Source: Clostridium sp. HBUAS56010 (GTDB lineage Bacteria; Bacillota; Clostridia; Lachnospirales; Lachnospiraceae). Taken from it: a DNA stretch of 64,000 nucleotides. Both the position numbers and the translations under genes were made by a program. The notes under the pieces are model-generated. The model did not search any database and was not told where the DNA came from. It saw nothing but the letters and a program-made list of their open reading frames with translations. Below are positions 1-15,574 of the stretch, piece by piece. The stretch covers positions 124,001 to 188,000 of the forward strand of contig NZ_SULJ01000001.1 in the NCBI RefSeq assembly GCF_007115105.1, written 5' to 3'. Each line of letters starts with the position of its first letter. Within the stretch, counting starts at the first letter, position 1.

Positions 1-1380
1 AATGAGAGAGGCGGTTCCTTTTGATACATTTTTAAGAAGCCTTGCCAGAGCCGTGGTCATATCTGCAATTCCGGATGCATTTTGTATGGTCGCCATCCAT
101 TTGATGGAATTGAGTGTATTGTATAAAAAGTGAGGATTGATCTGACTTTGGAGAATCTGATATTCCAAATCCTTTTTCTGTTTCTCATCAGCCAGTTTCT
201 TGTCCAGTAAATGGAGAATATTCCCGGACATCTGGTTAATTCCGCTTCCAATCTGCCCAAGTTCATGATCCCATTCAATTGTAAAATCCCTTGAAAAGTC
301 TCCCCCGGAGATTTTGTCAATCTTATTACTTAATTTGCGAATCGGTCCCATAATAATCCGGTTCAAAAGAAACGTTAACAAAATTCCTAAAGAAACAATA
401 ATCAGGCATATTCCAAGAATCAGAAGCATGTACAGTTTTTTCTGCTGTTGAAACTGCTGTTCAGACAGGATCTGTGACAGATGCAGACCATTCATCCCGT
501 CTATCTGCCGTTCTACAATGATCCGTTTTCTTCCGTCTTCACCTGTAGCAGAAAATACCCGGGTACCTTCAGAGAGGGATTCATTTTCCGACATGGGAAT
601 CGGATCCTTGTAGGGAATTTGGGTTTCCTCCCATCTTCCGGAATGAAAATCATAGGTTTTATTTCCCATAGTCAAAAGGAGCACACTGTCGCCTGCAAGA
701 GGATAGGAAGACAGATAATCAGTAAAAAGTTTGGAGGAGACCTCCACATAGTTCCAGCCAATGATCTTGGAATTAAATTTATTATAAATAGGGCGCACAA
801 TCGGCAGAAACGTATCTTTGCTGATTTTAGAAAATGGATCTTCAATCATGCCTTCCCATAGAAAATCCCCTGACTCATACAAGTGGGAATAAAAGGGTTG
901 TTCTTTGATGATCGTTGCAGCATAGCCAGAAGAGTTGTTGGCGGAAGCGGACATCTGTAGGAAGTTATTTTTATTGGTAGAGGAAATGATCACTCTGGAG
1001 ATGTATTCGTTAGACCGGGTATTATAGTACTCTTCTTTTAAGCGGTTGTGGGTGGAGAGTGCCAGCGGCCGGAGGTTTTCTGTATCTTTATCCGCAGTAG
1101 GAAGTCTTGATTCATCTTTAAATGCTTCCAGATAGTCAAGAATTGCTTCGTTGGAACAGCACCATTTACTAAAGTAAATGATGTCTTTCATGTCGGCTGC
1201 TATGTTATTATTTGCCACTTGAAGGCTGAATTCGGCAGATTGGATCTGGTTTTTCCTTAAAAAGGACTGGAAAACTGAGAAGCAGACCGATGTGGTCAGA
1301 ATGGTAATAAGCAGGGTCAGAGAGGCGGTAAGTGCCATGAGTTTTCCCCGGATGGTTTTTGGAATGAACTTATTTAACAT
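1..1380 (-). CDS. YesM-type sensor histidine kinase, C-terminus cut by the window edge
   Basis: Membrane sensor kinase that would phosphorylate a YesN/AraC-type response regulator, probably encoded just beyond the left edge. The reading frame is open from the ATG at 1378-1380 to base 1, giving 460 residues. It starts MLNKFIPKTIRGK, followed by a first membrane segment at about residues 13-35, an extracellular sensor region, and a second membrane segment near residues 320-340. A HAMP-like stretch follows, then the H-box INPHFLYNTLNS with the phospho-acceptor His at residue 417. The ATPase domain lies outside the window. It is divergent from the ABC importer at 1711, so it probably controls that locus. 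The N-terminus and H-box identify the family clearly; the ligand is unknown. Confidence 0.93.
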   Translation of the reverse strand, partial: MLNKFIPKTIRGKLMALTASLTLLITILTTSVCFSVFQSFLRKNQIQSAEFSLQVANNNIAADMKDIIYFSKWCCSNEAILDYLEAFKDESRLPTADKDTENLRPLALSTHNRLKEEYYNTRSNEYISRVIISSTNKNNFLQMSASANNSSGYAATIIKEQPFYSHLYESGDFLWEGMIEDPFSKISKDTFLPIVRPIYNKFNSKIIGWNYVEVSSKLFTDYLSSYPLAGDSVLLLTMGNKTYDFHSGRWEETQIPYKDPIPMSENESLSEGTRVFSATGEDGRKRIIVERQIDGMNGLHLSQILSEQQFQQQKKLYMLLILGICLIIVSLGILLTFLLNRIIMGPIRKLSNKIDKISGGDFSRDFTIEWDHELGQIGSGINQMSGNILHLLDKKLADEKQKKDLEYQILQSQINPHFLYNTLNSIKWMATIQNASGIADMTTALARLLKNVSKGTASLI

Positions 1381-1436
1381 GATAAAGACAGGTACCTTCT
1401 TTCCTATTACAGTATTATGGTATAGGTTCACCTACA

Positions 1437-1710: not shown

Positions 1711-3060
1711 ATGAAAAAAAGAAAGCTAAGTTTGTTACTGGCCTGTGCCATGGTAATAACCAGTCTTGCTGGTTGCGCCGGAAGCACGAAAGAGACTACC
1801 GCAGGTTCTCCAGATGGAGCAAAGGAAGAAACGAAAAAGCAGGAGGCAGCAAAATCAGCAGATGGCAGAACAACTTTAAAGTGGTCTGTATGGGATATCA
1901 GCACAACGACTTACTATCAACCGCTGATTGACGCATATGAAAAAGCGCATCCAGATGTGAAGATTGAAATGGTAGATTTAGGCTCCACCGATTATTCGAC
2001 TGTTCTCGCCACCGAGTTAACCGGAAGCGGCTCTGATTTTGATATTGTAATGGTAAAAGATGTTCCTGGATACATGACACTGGTCAACAAAGGAGTATTA
2101 GAGCCTCTGGATGCCTATATCCAGTCATCGAATGTAGATCTGACCCAGTATAAAGGACTTACTGATCAGATAACGGTAAAAGATCAGCTTTATGAGCTTC
2201 CATTCCGGAATGATTTCTGGGTAATGTTCTATAACAAAGATTTATTTGACAAAGCAGGCGTTGCTTATCCAACCAATGATATGACATTTGAGGAATATGA
2301 TAAATTAGTAAGAAGTGTCACAGTTGAAACACCAGGGCAGGAAGTTTACGGTGCCCATTACCATACATGGAGATCAGCAGTTCAGCTCTTTGGTATTTTA
2401 GACGGAAAAAATACGATTTTAGACGGAAAGTATGAATTTTTAAAACCATATTATGACATGGTGTTAAAAGAGCAGGAAGACGGCGTTACTCAGGATTATG
2501 CAACACTTAAAACCAGTGGTTTACATTATTCCGGTGCTTTTGCACAGGGAAATATTGCTACCATGAACATGGGAACATGGTTTATCTCAACTCTTATGGA
2601 GAAGATCCGTATTGGTGAATATACAGACTGTACCAATTGGGGAATTGCAAAATATCCTCACGCAGAAGGGGTTGAACCAGGGGCTACTCTTGCAACAATT
2701 ACGTCTCTTGCCATTCCTTCCAATGCACCTCATAAAGATCTTGCATGGGAATTCATCAACTTTGCCAGCGGCAAGGAAGGTGCAGAGATTCTGGCTGCTA
2801 CAGGAACCATTCCAGCAGTTATGAATGATACTGTTGCTGATCTGGTTTCCAGTGCAGACGGATTCCCTAAAGATGATTCCACCAGCACAGAAGCACTGAA
2901 CACTTCAAAGCTTTACCTGGAGATGCCTGTGAATGAAAAGAGTTCTGAAATTGAAATTGTATTGAATGAAGCACATGATGCCATTATGACGGGAAGTATG
3001 TCCGTTGACGATGGAATTGCTGAAATGAATGAAAAAGTCAGTGCGATCTTAGGTCAGTAA
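1711..3060 (+). CDS. ABC sugar transporter substrate-binding lipoprotein
   Basis: Extracellular solute-binding protein family 1 component of a carbohydrate ABC importer (CUT1 type), 449 residues. The chosen ATG has a strong AGGAGGG site 7 bases upstream; an in-frame ATG at 1666 lacks one. A basic N-terminus and hydrophobic stretch end in the lipobox LAGC, with Cys22 lipidated. A Thr/Lys/Glu-rich linker follows, then the binding fold (NDFWVMFYNKDLFDKAG is typical of the family). It is followed by a hairpin and then two permease genes. No ATPase gene is nearby, so a shared MsmX-like ATPase is likely. Downstream GH88, DUF2264 and GH2 genes suggest a uronic-acid-containing or galactosyl oligosaccharide as ligand (inference). 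Confidence 0.93.
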   Translation: MKKRKLSLLLACAMVITSLAGCAGSTKETTAGSPDGAKEETKKQEAAKSADGRTTLKWSVWDISTTTYYQPLIDAYEKAHPDVKIEMVDLGSTDYSTVLATELTGSGSDFDIVMVKDVPGYMTLVNKGVLEPLDAYIQSSNVDLTQYKGLTDQITVKDQLYELPFRNDFWVMFYNKDLFDKAGVAYPTNDMTFEEYDKLVRSVTVETPGQEVYGAHYHTWRSAVQLFGILDGKNTILDGKYEFLKPYYDMVLKEQEDGVTQDYATLKTSGLHYSGAFAQGNIATMNMGTWFISTLMEKIRIGEYTDCTNWGIAKYPHAEGVEPGATLATITSLAIPSNAPHKDLAWEFINFASGKEGAEILAATGTIPAVMNDTVADLVSSADGFPKDDSTSTEALNTSKLYLEMPVNEKSSEIEIVLNEAHDAIMTGSMSVDDGIAEMNEKVSAILGQ

Positions 3061-3080
3061 AGATCTGAAATGATAAAACA

Positions 3081-3106
3081 GGCGGGCAGCAAAAGCCCGC
3101 CTTATT
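3081..3106 (+). terminator. Intercistronic GC hairpin after the binding-protein gene
   Basis: GGCGGGC (3081-3087) pairs perfectly with GCCCGCC (3095-3101) over a 7-base loop and is followed by TTATTT. In an importer operon such a hairpin can act as a partial terminator or 3' stabiliser, giving more binding protein than permease. A matching hairpin sits in the same place in the importer at 59.6 kb. Confidence 0.7.
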
Positions 3107-3148
3107 TAAAAAACTTCTGATGCACATAGAAAAAGGAGGAAGAGTAAA

Positions 3149-4216
3149 ATGGCGAAGACAATAACAGAATCGCAAAAACAGGAAAAAATCGCTGCTTTGC
3201 AAAAACGGCGGGATTCGTTAAGTCTATTGCTTTCGGATACTGGAAGCAATAGAAGACGTGACAGCCTGATTGCGAAGATCGAAAAAATAGATGAAAATAT
3301 TAAAAAAATCCGTACCGGACAGCGCTTTACAAGACAGGAGAAGAGGAATCTGGTTGCTTACTCCTTCATAGCCCCCAACTTTATTGGATTTGCAGTCTTT
3401 ACGCTGGGACCGATTATTTTTGCTTTTGTTCTGGCTTTTATGGAATGGGATGGAAACAGCTCTATGAAGTTTGCAGGACTTAGTAATTTTGTTGCTATGT
3501 TTGTGAATGCGAGATTTCAGGCATCTTTCATTAACACCATTGTTTATTGTGCAGCCACGGTTCCTTTAACGCTTGTGTGTGCTCTTTTATTAGCGGTTGT
3601 TTTAAACCAGAAGATAAAAGGGAGAAACTTTTTCCGTACGGTCAGTTTCTTTCCTTATGTTGCATCATTAGTTGCGGTGGCGGCCGTATGGAACATGTTA
3701 TTCAGCCCCATGAAGAGCGGACCGGTTAATATGATTCTTTATAATCTGGGTGTCCATGCGAAAAGTCTTCCCAAGTGGGCAGCCGATCCCCACTGGGTCA
3801 TGTTTACCATTATATTATTCAGTGTCTGGAAAAACATGGGATATTATATGATTATATATCTGGCAGGTTTGCAGGGAATTAACGGCGAGCTTTATGAGGC
3901 GGCAGGCCTTGACGGCTGTAACACATGGCAAAAATTCCGGTACATTACCTGGCCCCAGCTTCAGCCTACAACGTTCTTTGTAACCATTATCCTGACGATC
4001 AACTGCTTTAAGGTATACGATATTGTTTATATGCTGGCAGGAGGTTCCAATGGTATTGTAAGTTCCCAGGCGATGGTACTTGTTTATCACATTTATGAAG
4101 AAGCATTCCGTAACTGGAATCTGGGATATGCAAGTGCGGTAGCAATGGTATTATTCTTAATGGTTCTTGCTGTAACACTGGTTCAGTTCCGTGGCGAAAG
4201 AAAATATGCAAACTAA
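3149..4216 (+). CDS. ABC sugar transporter permease (UgpA/LacF type)
   Basis: Integral-membrane permease of the CUT1 importer, 355 residues, with AAAGGAGG upstream of the ATG. A charged, probably helical/coiled-coil cytoplasmic extension covers about the first 65 residues (repeated Lys/Glu/Arg/Ile pattern). About six membrane spans follow, beginning at VAYSFIAPNFIGF. The EAA loop, YEAAGLDGCNTWQKFRYITW, which contacts the ATPase, lies around residues 247-266. The N-terminal extension is longer than in most UgpA-like permeases. It pairs with the permease that starts 15 bases downstream. Confidence 0.94.
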   Translation: MAKTITESQKQEKIAALQKRRDSLSLLLSDTGSNRRRDSLIAKIEKIDENIKKIRTGQRFTRQEKRNLVAYSFIAPNFIGFAVFTLGPIIFAFVLAFMEWDGNSSMKFAGLSNFVAMFVNARFQASFINTIVYCAATVPLTLVCALLLAVVLNQKIKGRNFFRTVSFFPYVASLVAVAAVWNMLFSPMKSGPVNMILYNLGVHAKSLPKWAADPHWVMFTIILFSVWKNMGYYMIIYLAGLQGINGELYEAAGLDGCNTWQKFRYITWPQLQPTTFFVTIILTINCFKVYDIVYMLAGGSNGIVSSQAMVLVYHIYEEAFRNWNLGYASAVAMVLFLMVLAVTLVQFRGERKYAN

Positions 4217-11295: not shown

Positions 11296-11655
11296 ATGGA
11301 ATATCAGTGGATTGATGAATACTTGAAATCAATGAAAGGCGTGACCAGTGATTATAAAAAGGAAAGGAACTGGGTTCGGTACTTTATAGGAGGCAAAATG
11401 TTTGCGGCAGTTTGCATGACAGAAAAAGGGGTAACCGATTTCGTCACTTTGAAGCTGGAACCGGCAGAAGGTGAATTTTTAAGACGGAGATATGAAGATA
11501 TTATTCCCGGGCATTATTTGAATAAGCTCTATTGGAACTCCGTGAAAGCCAATGGGAATATTCCCAAAAACCTCTTAAGTGATTTACTTGAGAAATCCTA
11601 TTACCTGGTGTTGTCAAAGATATCCAAAAAGCAGAAGGAGGAACTTTTTTGTTGA
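11296..11655 (+). CDS. MmcQ/YjbR family protein
   Basis: 119-residue protein of the YjbR/MmcQ family (CyaY-like fold, sometimes called DNA-binding). Recognisable features are VRYFIGGKMFAAV, VTLKLEP and the C-terminal GHYLNKLYWNSVKANGNIP. It starts 30 bases after the beta-galactosidase behind GGGGGCG and probably rides on the end of that transcript. The biological role of the family is not established, and nothing in the context resolves it. Confidence 0.85.
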   Translation: MEYQWIDEYLKSMKGVTSDYKKERNWVRYFIGGKMFAAVCMTEKGVTDFVTLKLEPAEGEFLRRRYEDIIPGHYLNKLYWNSVKANGNIPKNLLSDLLEKSYYLVLSKISKKQKEELFC

Positions 11656-11670
11656 ATTTCCATAATTTAC

Positions 11671-11699
11671 TTGACAAATCAAATTATGGGCAGTATTCT
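11671..11699 (+). promoter_or_regulatory. Promoter of the ABC exporter leader
   Basis: Perfect TTGACA (11671-11676), a 17-base spacer, and TATTCT (11694-11699). Transcription would start near 11706, giving a leader of about 330 bases before the first exporter gene. Confidence 0.75.
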
Positions 11700-11744
11700 A
11701 ATTATTAGAAATATTCAAAAAATATAGAAAAGGAGGCAGTTATC

Positions 11745-11858
11745 ATGAGAAGCATAATTGGAATGATTGGAAGCAGTAGAAGAAAGAACAAAAATTTAAT
11801 TAGATATCATGTTCAGTCTGCCTCATGGAATATAGAATCCTTTTTTCTTGCCGAATAA
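11745..11858 (+). CDS. 37-residue putative leader peptide of the ABC exporter operon
   Basis: An ATG preceded by AAAAGGAGG, one of the best ribosome sites in the window, opens a 37-codon frame starting MRSIIGMIGSSRRKNKN and ending ESFFLAE. It sits about 40 bases after a strong promoter and before two tandem terminators that precede a heterodimeric drug-exporter pair. This is the layout of ribosome-mediated attenuation, as for bmrB ahead of Bacillus subtilis bmrCD (established example). The peptide itself is probably not functional. Codons 24-25 contain CAGTCT (11814-11819), which can pair with the 3' arm of the first terminator. Confidence 0.65.
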   Translation: MRSIIGMIGSSRRKNKNLIRYHVQSASWNIESFFLAE

Positions 11859-11897
11859 GGGTGGCTTCTGTTTTTACGGAAGTATTTTATGAGAATA

Positions 11898-11931
11898 AAC
11901 CGCAGTCTGAATAGACTGCGGTTATTTTTTT
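11898..11931 (+). terminator. Attenuator terminator T1
   Basis: AACCGCAGTCT (11898-11908) pairs perfectly with AGACTGCGGTT (11913-11923) across a GAAT loop, followed by ATTTTTTT. The 3' arm is nearly repeated at 11997-12007 (AGACTGTGGTT), so the 5' arm has an alternative partner. It lies 40 bases after the leader ORF stop. Confidence 0.88.
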
Positions 11932-11938
11932 CTATGTT

Positions 11939-11979
11939 GCTGGAAAAGACCGCCTTTTGCTGTCTTTTCCAGCTTTTTT
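11939..11979 (+). terminator. Attenuator terminator T2
   Basis: GCTGGAAAAGAC (11939-11950) pairs perfectly with GTCTTTTCCAGC (11962-11973), 12 base pairs, followed by TTTTTT. It is the second strong intrinsic terminator in a row and lies about 55 bases ahead of the exporter start. Confidence 0.88.
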
Positions 11980-12032
11980 ATGTGTCAGGGGGCAGCAGAC
12001 TGTGGTTTTAGAATTATTTTAAGGAGAAGAGT

Positions 12033-13775
12033 ATGAAAAATCTATGGAAGTATGCAAAAAAATACTGGCATATGTATCTGTTTGCTTTAGGTGCCATGGT
12101 AATCAGTATTTTGCTGGATGCAGCAGCACCTCAGATCACCAAACGTATCATTGATGACGTAATTGTAGGCGGAGAAATGAAAATTCTCATGAATCTGCTT
12201 TTGGGCCTTCTTGGAATTGGGCTTTTAAGGGCTGTATTCCAGTATGCCAAGGAATTTGTTTTTGATTATGCCTCATCCGGAATTGGAAGCGGACTGAGGA
12301 AAGACCTTTTTGACCATATCCAGACTTTATCCATGGGGTATTTCGACCGTCACAATACAGGAGAGCTGATGGCAAGAATCAAGGATGATGCCGAAAAAAT
12401 ATGGAACGCTTTTGGATTCGTTGGCATGTTAGTGATTGAGTGTACCATACACACTCTTGTAGTTCTTTTTTGTATGTATCGGATCAGTCCTGTTTTAACC
12501 TTAATTCCCCTTGCTGTTCTGCCGATCATTGCCTGGTATGCCATCAAGATGGAAAATGGGCTGGGAGAAGTTTATGATAAAATCAGCGAACAGACGGCGG
12601 AGTTAAATACAGTTGCCCAGGAAAATCTTGCGGGAGTGCGTACAGTAAAGGCTTTTGCAAGAGAAGACTATGAAATGGAAAAGTTTAAAAAGCACAACAA
12701 GAGTTTTTATGACTTAAATATGAAGCAGGCAAGGCTGGTTGTCCGCTATCAGCCCAACATCTCCTTTTTGTCCAAGGTACTTTTGATCGCAGTGATTGTA
12801 ATCGGCGGGATTTTAGTTATTATGGAAAAAATGACGGTAGGAGAACTTGGTGCATTTTCTGAATATGCCAATAATATTATCTGGCCTATGGAAATGGTTG
12901 GCTGGCTCAGCAATGATCTGGCTGCGGCAATGGCTTCCAATAAGAAGATCAAGGCGATTATGGCGGAAGAGCCTGTGATTAAAGATACAGAACAGCCTGT
13001 TTACCCAGAGAAAATCAAGGGGGAACTGGTGTTTGACCAGGTTGGTTTCTCCATTGATGGAAAGTCTGTTTTAAACGATATTAATTTTACATTAAAGCCT
13101 GGGCAGACCATTGGGATTATGGGAGTAACCGGTTCCGGGAAAAGTTCTGTGGTTAATCTGATCAAGCGGTTTTACGATGTAACGGAAGGAAGAATACTGC
13201 TTGATGGAATCAATATCAAAGAACTTCCTCTCTCTGTTTTAAGAAAAGAAATCTCAGTGGTCATGCAGGATGTATTCCTGTTTTCCGACAGCATTACGGA
13301 AAATATAAAAACCGGAAACCGGGAGAGGGCAAAATGGGAAAGCGTGCAGCAGGCTTCTATTTCAGCGGAAGCCCACAGCTTTATCTCAAAACTGACCGAT
13401 CAGTACGACACGGTAATAGGAGAACGTGGAGTAGGACTTTCGGGAGGACAGAAACAGCGGATCAGCATCGCAAGAGCCATTGCCAAAGAAAGTCCGATTC
13501 TGATCTTTGATGATTCCACCTCGGCTCTTGATATGGAAACGGAGAAGAAAATTGAACATCATCTGTGGAATCAGAAACAGAGTTCTAAGATCATCATTGC
13601 CCACCGCATATCGGCAGTCCGTAATGCGGATGAAATTCTGATTTTTTCAGATGGAAAGATTATAGAGCGGGGAACCCACAAAGATCTGATGGAAAAACGG
13701 GGGGAATATTACAAAACCTATCAGGTGCAGTATGGAGAGGAGGAAACAACATGGCAGTCAATTCCAGCAGAGTAG
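12033..13775 (+). CDS. Heterodimeric ABC exporter, half-transporter with degenerate Walker B (BmrC/LmrC-like)
   Basis: 580-residue type IV ABC half-transporter: six membrane spans (about residues 1-305), then the ATPase domain. Walker A GVTGSGKSS is near residue 366, the signature LSGGQ is canonical and the H-loop IIAHR is present. Walker B reads LIFDDSTSALD, with Asp replacing the catalytic Glu (about residue 493). That is the mark of the non-catalytic half of heterodimeric multidrug exporters. The partner begins 25 bases before this gene ends. Expression is probably controlled by the leader ORF and double terminator upstream. The substrate is probably a drug or amphiphile, by family and regulation. 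Confidence 0.92.
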   Translation: MKNLWKYAKKYWHMYLFALGAMVISILLDAAAPQITKRIIDDVIVGGEMKILMNLLLGLLGIGLLRAVFQYAKEFVFDYASSGIGSGLRKDLFDHIQTLSMGYFDRHNTGELMARIKDDAEKIWNAFGFVGMLVIECTIHTLVVLFCMYRISPVLTLIPLAVLPIIAWYAIKMENGLGEVYDKISEQTAELNTVAQENLAGVRTVKAFAREDYEMEKFKKHNKSFYDLNMKQARLVVRYQPNISFLSKVLLIAVIVIGGILVIMEKMTVGELGAFSEYANNIIWPMEMVGWLSNDLAAAMASNKKIKAIMAEEPVIKDTEQPVYPEKIKGELVFDQVGFSIDGKSVLNDINFTLKPGQTIGIMGVTGSGKSSVVNLIKRFYDVTEGRILLDGINIKELPLSVLRKEISVVMQDVFLFSDSITENIKTGNRERAKWESVQQASISAEAHSFISKLTDQYDTVIGERGVGLSGGQKQRISIARAIAKESPILIFDDSTSALDMETEKKIEHHLWNQKQSSKIIIAHRISAVRNADEILIFSDGKIIERGTHKDLMEKRGEYYKTYQVQYGEEETTWQSIPAE

Positions 13776-15574
13776 ATGAAGATCAAAAAGAAGTGTTAAA
13801 AAAGGATACCATAATACGTTTGTTTGCATATCTTCTTGGTTTTAAAAAGCAGATTACAATTGTTTTATTGATTATGGCTGGAACCATAACAATCAGTATG
13901 CTGGCACCCCTTATCATGGAGTATGCCATTAATGTATGTGTGGCTCAAAAGGATATCAGGGGTCTTTTGATATTGGGAGGAGGAGCAGTGTTTTTGTTTG
14001 TGTTATTTTTGATTGGAACAAAGGTTCGGATGGTTCTTATGGCAGAAGTATCCAATCAGGTTTTACTGGAAATCAGGGAAGAACTGTACAAACATATTCA
14101 AAGCCTTGGTTTCGGATTTTTTGACAGCCGGCCAACGGGAAAGATTCTCGCCAGAGTGATTGGTGATGTGAATTCTCTGAAAAATGTTTTGTCAGACAGC
14201 GTCACTCAGTTAATTCCTGATCTTCTTACGGTTATATGCGTAGCCGTTATTATGGTGGTGAAGAATTACCGTCTGGCTATGGCTGCACTTTTAACCCTTC
14301 CGATTCTGGCTGTTGGTATGTTTCTGATTGAAACAACCGTCCACAGAAGATGGCAGATTTACCGTAAAAAGACTTCTAATTTAAATGCGTATGTTCATGA
14401 AGATTTATCGGGAATCAGAATTATTCAAAGCTTTGCCGCAGAACGGGAGACAAAACAGGTGTTTCACAGTCTGGTTGACCAGCATTATCAATCTTTTATC
14501 AATGCGGTGGCTGTGGCGGACGGGTTTGGACCTCTGGTTGAGGTCACCTGGGGGCTTGGAGTTTTTTTGCTTTATTTTATCGGCATTCGCATGATAGGGG
14601 TGGAACAGGTAGGAATTGGTACATTCCTGGCATTTTCAACTTATCTTTCCATGTTCTGGAGTCCCATCCGCAATCTTGCCAACTTTTATAATAAACTGAC
14701 CACCAATCTTTCGGCTGCGGAGCGGATCTTTGACCTGATTGATACAGAGGCAGAGATAAAGGATCAGGAAGGGGCGAAAGAATTATTTGGATTAAAGGGA
14801 GAAGTGGTTTTTGAAAATGTATCATTTGCTTACAGTGACGAACCGGACCGCTTGATTTTAAAAGAGGTTAATTTTGCTATCAAGCCAGGTGAAACTATAG
14901 CACTTGTAGGTCCTACGGGAGCAGGCAAAACGACAATTGTAAATCTGATCAGCCGGTTTTATGAAACAACAAAGGGGAATATCTGGATTGATGGTCATGA
15001 AATCAAGGATTTTACCTTAAACAGTTTAAGAAGCCAGCTTGGCATTATGACACAGGATAACTTTCTTTTTTCCGGCACAATTGGAGATAACATTCGGTAT
15101 GGACGGTTAGATGCCACTCAGGAGGAGATTATAGAAGCCGCGAAAGCGGTCAGTGCCCACGATTTTATTATGAAACTGGAAAATGGCTATGATACAGTCA
15201 TCAGTGAACGCGGAGCAGGATTATCCATAGGACAGAGACAGCTTCTGGCATTTGCCCGGACCATGGTTTCAAGACCAGGAATTTTAATTCTTGATGAAGC
15301 CACCTCAAGCATTGATACCCACACAGAACTTCTGGTGCAGAAAGGGATTGACGCATTGTTAAAGGGCAGGACTTCTTTTATCATTGCCCATCGTCTTTCC
15401 ACCATACGAAAAGCAGACAGGATCTTTGTCATTGACAATGGAATGGTTATGGAAGAAGGAACCCATGAGGAACTTTTAAAACGGAAAGGTGCTTATTATC
15501 AGTTGTATCAGAGCCAGTTTTCAGAGGCAGCCCCATTTGGAAAAGGGATTGACCGGATCGGGGAAATGCAATAG
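13751..15574 (+). CDS. Heterodimeric ABC exporter, catalytic half (BmrD/LmrD-like)
   Basis: 607-residue half-transporter overlapping its partner by 25 bases, with GAGGAGG inside the end of the upstream gene. Six membrane spans precede the ATPase domain. Walker A is GPTGAGKTT (about 386-394) and Walker B is ILILDEATSSID with the catalytic Glu intact. The signature reads LSIGQ instead of LSGGQ. Together with the Asp in its partner's Walker B this predicts one degenerate and one active ATP site, as in BmrCD, LmrCD and TM287/288. Confidence 0.92.
   Translation: MAVNSSRVDEDQKEVLKKDTIIRLFAYLLGFKKQITIVLLIMAGTITISMLAPLIMEYAINVCVAQKDIRGLLILGGGAVFLFVLFLIGTKVRMVLMAEVSNQVLLEIREELYKHIQSLGFGFFDSRPTGKILARVIGDVNSLKNVLSDSVTQLIPDLLTVICVAVIMVVKNYRLAMAALLTLPILAVGMFLIETTVHRRWQIYRKKTSNLNAYVHEDLSGIRIIQSFAAERETKQVFHSLVDQHYQSFINAVAVADGFGPLVEVTWGLGVFLLYFIGIRMIGVEQVGIGTFLAFSTYLSMFWSPIRNLANFYNKLTTNLSAAERIFDLIDTEAEIKDQEGAKELFGLKGEVVFENVSFAYSDEPDRLILKEVNFAIKPGETIALVGPTGAGKTTIVNLISRFYETTKGNIWIDGHEIKDFTLNSLRSQLGIMTQDNFLFSGTIGDNIRYGRLDATQEEIIEAAKAVSAHDFIMKLENGYDTVISERGAGLSIGQRQLLAFARTMVSRPGILILDEATSSIDTHTELLVQKGIDALLKGRTSFIIAHRLSTIRKADRIFVIDNGMVMEEGTHEELLKRKGAYYQLYQSQFSEAAPFGKGIDRIGEMQ

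Follow-up and report, generated by a model that had tools for sequence, protein, structure and literature searches.

A candidate transcription attenuator before an ABC exporter of Clostridia, with the Shine-Dalgarno sequence of its leader ORF as a predicted switch strand

In the trp attenuator of E. coli, control rests on the alternative 1:2, 2:3 and 3:4 pairing of RNA strands, strand 1 carrying Trp codons at the end of the leader ORF. Leaders that read translation have also been described in front of antibiotic resistance genes. In B. subtilis, bmrCD expression is induced by ribosome-targeting antibiotics and requires translation of the leader ORF bmrB, and the part of the report available to us describes three structures at nt 60-162, with a terminator lying inside the ORF and an anti-antiterminator whose role is left unclear (PMC4191407). 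The B. subtilis ABC-F gene vmlR is preceded by a tripeptide uORF within an anti-antiterminator hairpin, the Shine-Dalgarno sequence (SD) of the uORF being single-stranded ahead of the hairpin, and its inducers are described as holding ribosomes at initiation on that uORF (PMC9226507). For the DUF1127 leader of Sinorhizobium meliloti, Rho-dependent termination has been proposed, in the available account without an intrinsic terminator or an antiterminator (PMC12218461).

Here we analyse a leader in a 64,000-nt stretch of DNA from Clostridium sp. HBUAS56010 (hereafter the window). It shares with bmrB-bmrCD (PMC4191407, as far as available) a short leader ORF, an intrinsic terminator, and a predicted antiterminator and anti-antiterminator before a heterodimeric ABC exporter, and with vmlR, in the accessible text of PMC9226507, the anti-antiterminator/antiterminator/terminator logic.

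The exporter is encoded on the plus strand by two overlapping genes, half A (580 aa, 12033-13775) and half B (607 aa, 13751-15574), each matching both ABC_membrane and ABC_tran. The nucleotide-binding domain of half A has the motif DDSTSALD where DE is usual, and the signature of half B reads LSIGQ instead of LSGGQ, a combination that we take to mark exporters in which one of the ATP sites is degenerate. Among bacterial chains of the PDB, half A matched TM287 (E 2.5e-98), and half B matched TM288 (4.6e-115), YheH (9.8e-102) and also Sav1866. These features assign the two halves to heterodimeric ABC exporters with one degenerate site, of the TM287/288 or BmrCD kind, in agreement with the original prediction, and by homology the pair is likely a drug exporter; among the best 25 NCBIfam models listed, none reached its cut-off for either half. 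The exporter was present in all 25 genomes searched from the window's own genus. One genome carries half A twice (G001:C9:1323888-1325627 and 1326269-1328008, with 641 nt between), with N upstream of one copy, which is either a recent duplication or an assembly artefact (L108 and L126).

The leader begins at a promoter TTGACA-17-TATTCT (11671-11699, plus strand), with 10 of 12 consensus matches. A promoter scan found three promoter-like sites where 2.7 are expected by chance, so that the scan alone is no evidence, but the same spaced motif recurs in every one of the 28 distinct regions that lie upstream of exporters sharing at least 73% identity with the window's. An SD, GGAGG (11732-11736), precedes a plus-strand leader ORF of 37 codons (37 aa, 11745-11858). 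After a small terminator-like hairpin in the interval that follows (11864-11883), a position occupied by other hairpins in relatives when inspected by eye, comes terminator T1 (11898-11931, -17.3 kcal/mol), which starts 39 nt past the ORF stop and consists of a perfect 11-bp stem (11898-11908 with 11913-11923) and a U tract. A second terminator, T2, lies at 11939-11979 (stem 11939-11973, -21.9 kcal/mol). The original prediction had named this promoter and this ORF with its SD, and both hold; it had also called the two terminators perfect, which is true of T1, whereas the stem of T2 has 12 bp, a mismatch and 2 bp. The leader folds better than expected (z = -4.68), none of 100 shuffles being equally good. 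Rfam gave no match at gathering score in the whole window, and the 17 matches at E<=10 on 11650-12060 were all below their own gathering scores, none being of this attenuator kind.

Four RNA strands appear central to this leader. Strand 1, GAGGCAG (11733-11739), is part of the leader SD; strand 2, the switch UUCAGUCUGCCUC (11812-11824), lies inside the 3' part of the leader ORF; strands 3 and 4 are the arms of T1. Strand 2 can pair with strand 1 through 11818-11824 (CUGCCUC) to form P1, a predicted anti-antiterminator of 7 bp (-13.4 kcal/mol). It can also pair through 11812-11821 (UUCAGUCUGC) with 11902-11911 (GCAGUCUGAA), that is, with the T1 5' arm and loop, to form a predicted antiterminator, AT1, of nine pairs flanking a U-U mismatch (-12.8 kcal/mol). 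Positions 11818-11821 are used by both P1 and AT1, and 11902-11911 by both AT1 and T1; T1 lies between leader ORF and gene, and antiterminator and anti-antiterminator overlap, as in an attenuator. The repeats noticed originally, CAGTCT at 11814-11819 and 11903-11908 and AGACTG at 11913-11918 and 11997-12002, are all present. The ORF segment singled out there is indeed the key element, though its partners would be the T1 5' arm and loop and the leader SD; CAG-U-CUG being almost self-complementary, the two same-strand CAGTCT copies can pair together. Finally, the 3' arm of T1 together with its U tract (11918-11929) could pair with 11942-11953 in T2 (AT2, -11.0 kcal/mol).

To follow this arrangement across genomes, we assembled 106 exporter loci, 80 from genome contigs and 26 from the window's genus, 97 of which have distinct upstream ends. 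Twenty-eight distinct loci with an exporter at least 73% identical to the window's form a close set, and all have the same order of parts: AAGGAGGCAG, ATG, a short ORF, CAGTCTGCCTC and hairpins. A detector defined by a 7-base SD:anti-SD match (at least six Watson-Crick pairs) with a terminator behind it, and no ORF required, found the arrangement in 81 of the 97 distinct loci and no match in the other 16; after shuffling of the region from start codon to T1, the same SD still gave a match in 23 of 243 cases. A looser scan, requiring an ORF and setting no pairing threshold, gave the layout in 89 of 97, although 81 of 97 is the figure to use; an ORF with a terminator was not obtained in eight loci, at least one of which (L150) is a miss of the script. 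The frame set by the ATG runs open across the switch in 80 of the 81 loci, against 0 and 6 for the other two frames, and in most loci the terminator follows the stop of the leader ORF. A second terminator is present in 27 of the 28 close relatives and in 17 of 60 others. One locus excluded from these counts, L039, has GGAAGCAG about 90-130 nt before the exporter, then ATG and, almost directly, a T1-like hairpin CCGCAGTCTGATCACTGCGG, and may be a minimal form. As a negative control, a class-wide search of 245 genomes provided 28 new exporter loci: the arrangement precedes seven of the eight homologues at least 46% identical and none of the 20 at 43% or less, and therefore appears to travel with one exporter clade, the detector not being easily fooled.

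In other Lachnospiraceae and Clostridiales we found a second sequence class, in which the SD contains GAGGUA, T1 contains CCGUGGUAUUUC.. and the switch has UACCUC. As SD, switch and T1 sequences all differ between the classes, both helices have changed together. Within classes, alignments were limited to leaders shorter than 230 nt and comprised 19 of 20 representatives for class C (without L037) and 21 of 27 for class G (without L067, L073, L076, L087, L095 and L097), the switch of L027 being misaligned in A1. In class C, AT1 is paired in 90.6% of cells, against 80.7+-1.7 in shuffles, with a covariation of 0.288 against 0.114+-0.023; none of 500 shuffles reached either value, and versions of the helix slid along the alignment were at most 43.6% paired. 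In class G, the result was not significant (81.3% paired against 78.7+-1.9, reached by 64 of 500 shuffles; covariation reached by 35 of 500; one slid version 68.5% paired), in a column count that suffers from variable loop length. P1 is paired in 97.0% (class C) and 93.9% (class G) of cells, with no covariation within either class.

We also consider alignment-free tests in which strands are swapped among loci. These used 88 rows, after L099 was dropped as having no refined T1, and 50 representatives with exporter identity below 85% (21 C and 29 G; L081, L093, L095 and L099 are G-type). AT1 was better with its own partner than with swapped ones in both classes (C, -12.7 against -10.0, 0/5000; G, -8.2 against -6.9, 1/5000), and so was P1 (C, -14.3 against -13.5, 3/5000; G, -11.2 against -10.0, 0/5000), the loci being related rather than independent and these counts not exact probabilities. 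Below 70% identity, with 8 C and 13 G representatives, the counts were 3/5000 and 1/5000 for AT1, and 196/5000 (weakened) and 15/5000 for P1. By these comparisons AT1 covaries in class C and is locus-specific in both classes. AT2 was hardly better with its own partner (close relatives, -13.8 against -13.3; others, -10.3 against -9.7): its sequence is conserved, covariation offers no proof of it, and pairing of the T1 3' arm with the T2 5' arm is a possibility only.

Taken as a three-strand attenuator, with the SD as strand 1, the switch as strand 2 and the arms of T1 as strands 3 and 4, the leader would work as follows. With no ribosome present, strand 1 would pair with strand 2 (P1), T1 would form and transcription would stop. 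Under free translation, the ribosome would cover the switch and T1 would again form, P1 re-forming later. A ribosome held at initiation or on the first few codons would instead cover the SD and leave the switch free, so that strand 2 would pair with strand 3 (AT1) before strand 4 is made, T1 would fail and the exporter would be transcribed. AT1 would need to last just briefly, while the polymerase is on the U tract of T1. In loci that have a T2, the 3' arm of T1, left unpaired, may in addition sequester the 5' arm of T2. A queue of ribosomes behind a later stall would presumably also cover the SD, widening the response. The peptide sequence itself would not matter.

Folding models with a ribosome in place are consistent with this scheme. 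When the window RNA is folded up to the T1 loop, the modelled probability of AT1 is 0.17 for free RNA. It is 0.84 when a ribosome occupies the start codon and 0.38 when it stands at codon 10; a ribosome covering the switch gives 0.00, and one at the stop gives 0.13. Among the 50 representatives, masking the start adds two or more expected AT1 pairs in 36 and causes a loss in none, and at least four AT1 pairs are expected in 39 with the start masked versus 7 when free. With the P-site on codons 1 to 7, the mean number of AT1 pairs is 7.3, 7.3, 7.1, 5.2, 3.2, 3.0 and 2.2, and beyond codon 7 it is near the free value of about 1.5. In the models, then, it is chiefly a ribosome on one of codons 1-4 that releases AT1. 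In the window itself, modelled AT1 is high up to P-site codon 7 and again at codon 18, and the reading range is therefore not strictly the start. Once the T1 3' arm has been made, T1 (-17.3 kcal/mol) beats AT1 (-12.8 kcal/mol) at equilibrium in every modelled state, even with the start masked, and the choice between them must therefore be kinetic.

We regard it as very probable that this leader attenuates transcription in some way linked to translation. That it works, more specifically, as a peptide-independent sensor of ribosomes arrested at initiation is in our judgement probable, with appreciably less assurance. We infer from sequence that the leader ORF is translated, and in the same spirit take start arrest to be the signal, inhibitors of initiation or of the first peptide bonds to be the presumed natural inducers, and the kinetics throughout to be those just outlined.

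Among other readings, the one that survives best, though it is unlikely, is an amino-acid or charged-tRNA attenuator, in which a shortage of some amino acid would halt the ribosome near the beginning of the leader. Any early arrest would do, the leader peptides are rich in Asn (15.9% before the switch), and DUF1127 control in Sinorhizobium has been proposed to sense ribosome and tRNA shortage (PMC12218461, as far as its text is available). However, the leader peptides share no codon run for one amino acid, their richness in Asn and Ile fits an A-rich unstructured RNA, and the target is an exporter rather than a biosynthetic gene.

A shade less likely again is peptide-specific stalling of the erm/mef type, in which the nascent leader peptide and a drug together arrest the ribosome at a programmed codon. 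An ORF with a strong SD ahead of an exporter would suit it, and such leaders are known from what is available of PMC4335068. Against it, a tblastn search with the leader peptide in 61 genomes returned only the window itself, and the best match in the 60 other genomes had a chance-like E-value of 0.0965. Leader ORF lengths range from 22 to 61 codons. The segment CAGTCTGCCT[CT] is exact in 26 of the 28 close relatives, yet the frame of CTGCCT relative to the ATG differs among them (22 versus 6), and it is therefore the RNA segment that is kept rather than the peptide residues. In the comparison of leaders across relatives that had been suggested, the peptide is not conserved, and the idea that it senses a compound by its own sequence finds no support, while the RNA segment and a frame open through the switch are conserved.

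A ligand riboswitch, or a site for an RNA-binding protein on the same helices, would account for the structured leader (z -4.68). We consider it very unlikely, as mean column identity outside P1, AT1/T1 and the SD is poor in the alignments (43% and 49%), no Rfam family is matched, and the frame kept open in 80 of 81 loci would be needless for a pure riboswitch.

In the original prediction, the leader CAGUCU competed with T1 by pairing with the T1 3' arm or with the AGACTG before the gene; the 8-base match with 11995-12002 on which this drew does exist in the window, but AGACTG is found after T1 in just one of the 28 close relatives, the window itself (L101), and in the T1 3' arm likewise in one of 28, and pairing with that arm would need to beat a hairpin already forming, which makes the proposal highly improbable. 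Just as improbable are plain tandem terminators, without regulation, of spurious transcription or of the yjbR-like gene upstream (11296-11655), given the promoter between that gene and the leader and the retention of leader, switch and T1 with the exporter in 81 of 97 loci and their loss with more distant paralogues.

The sensor of initiation-arrested ribosomes that we favour may not be confined to this exporter. Covariance models comprising P1 and T1 gave 30 matches at E<=0.01 in 200 genomes of the family, of which the best 11 all precede an orthologue of exporter A; among the remainder, four more match exporter A (one, L154, at only 28%). In 196 genomes of the order, matches occurred in seven, four of which precede an exporter A homologue. 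Matches with E above about 1e-5 are mixed, most weak ones, including L151 (E 2.1e-5), being chance-like by eye. An exact DNA pattern for one class, which matched in 12 of 299 genomes, proved too strict, and several of its matches were unrelated.

A different genus of the same family gave matches at E<=0.1 in 19 of the 41 genomes searched. Of the 20 loci there (19 new ones and L175), six precede an exporter A homologue and 13 adjoin an rsgA homologue, the rsgA neighbours having been found by tblastn with the RsgA start of L175, itself one of the 13. Thirteen rsgA-type leaders were tabulated, 12 with an RsgA match and L182, which has none within the locus. The switch lies within the ORF in all 13. 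P1, formed by SD and ORF, ranges from -8.4 to -16.0, and the pairing of the switch region with T1 from -10.7 to -14.6; L193 is without an SD in the matched stretch. The part that pairs with T1 has moved 3' and shows matched changes, for example CGGCU:AGCCG and CGGUU:AACCG, which, the loci being closely related, are suggestive rather than conclusive. In L191 the first gene after the leader (1745-3151) is a single ORF that encodes a GNAT acetyltransferase domain (46-134 in the best match) and, after it, an RsgA GTPase domain (266-440), a predicted acetyltransferase-RsgA fusion that similar first ORFs indicate also for L189 and L192.

Further leaders of this type were seen beside other genes. An SD:anti-SD leader with a terminator stands before an ABC exporter 28% identical to A in L154 (about 1501-1734), and another, on the minus strand of L152 (about 1501-1691), stands before an ABC exporter whose ABC_membrane domain is preceded by a novel N-terminal stretch. 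In L173, a class-G-like leader (P1 -15.7, AT -11.3) precedes a 70-aa ORF (1219-1428, minus strand) with no Pfam match.

From these distributions we tentatively suggest, as a wider claim that we would put somewhat below even, that Clostridia have a general class of RNA sensors of initiation arrest that do not depend on the peptide. The SD of a disposable ORF would serve in them both as the ribosome's landing site and as strand 1 of a 1:2/2:3/3:4 switch; compensatory changes would have produced several sequence classes, and the genes controlled would be various genes of translation stress (the exporter, rsgA, which encodes a ribosome assembly GTPase, and probably the ABC exporters of L152 and L154). 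If true, many gut and environmental Clostridia would report initiation-arrested ribosomes without a special arrest peptide, and a conserved exporter that stays silent until a translation inhibitor arrives would be explained. The scheme predicts that the inducers are drugs that trap ribosomes on the start codon or close to it, and not those that act late in elongation; its occurrence before rsgA would tie control of ribosome assembly to the same signal, and it would provide a compact reporter part. With two helices and compensatory changes at hand, the mechanism is directly testable.

A survey of premature terminators, in the part available, includes five other ABC-leaders in a figure, and 'Lachno' is absent from its main text. 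Among the open-access papers searched we found no title or abstract describing such a device, which may already have been noted elsewhere.

Compared with the described systems, the DUF1127 leader of S. meliloti (PMC12218461, in its available parts) is alike in that uORF codons pair with their own RBS and read initiation and ribosome availability, and differs in that missing ribosomes turn the gene on there, whereas here they should keep it off. The E. coli toiL-topAI leader (PMC12121999, as far as accessible) resembles ours in that its uORF answers several drug classes and tetracycline stalls ribosomes at its start codon; it works, however, by RBS control and Rho-dependent termination, with another layout and before another gene. 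The trp attenuator has the same 1:2/2:3/3:4 pairing, but here strand 1 would be the SD and strand 2 lies in the ORF. The bmrB-bmrCD layout of ribosome-mediated attenuation, with which the locus was originally likened, is supported as a kind of control and differs in pairing partners and in the use of the SD: as described in the available text, the leader SD takes no part there, whereas here it is a predicted pairing strand and the terminator lies past the stop in most loci. Unlike the tripeptide uORF of vmlR, the ORF here has 22-61 codons and its 3' part would fold back on the SD. bmrB-bmrCD and vmlR are thus the nearest known systems, with the same logic and different wiring, and what appears new, judging from the predicted pairings, is the use of the leader ORF's SD as the anti-antiterminator strand.
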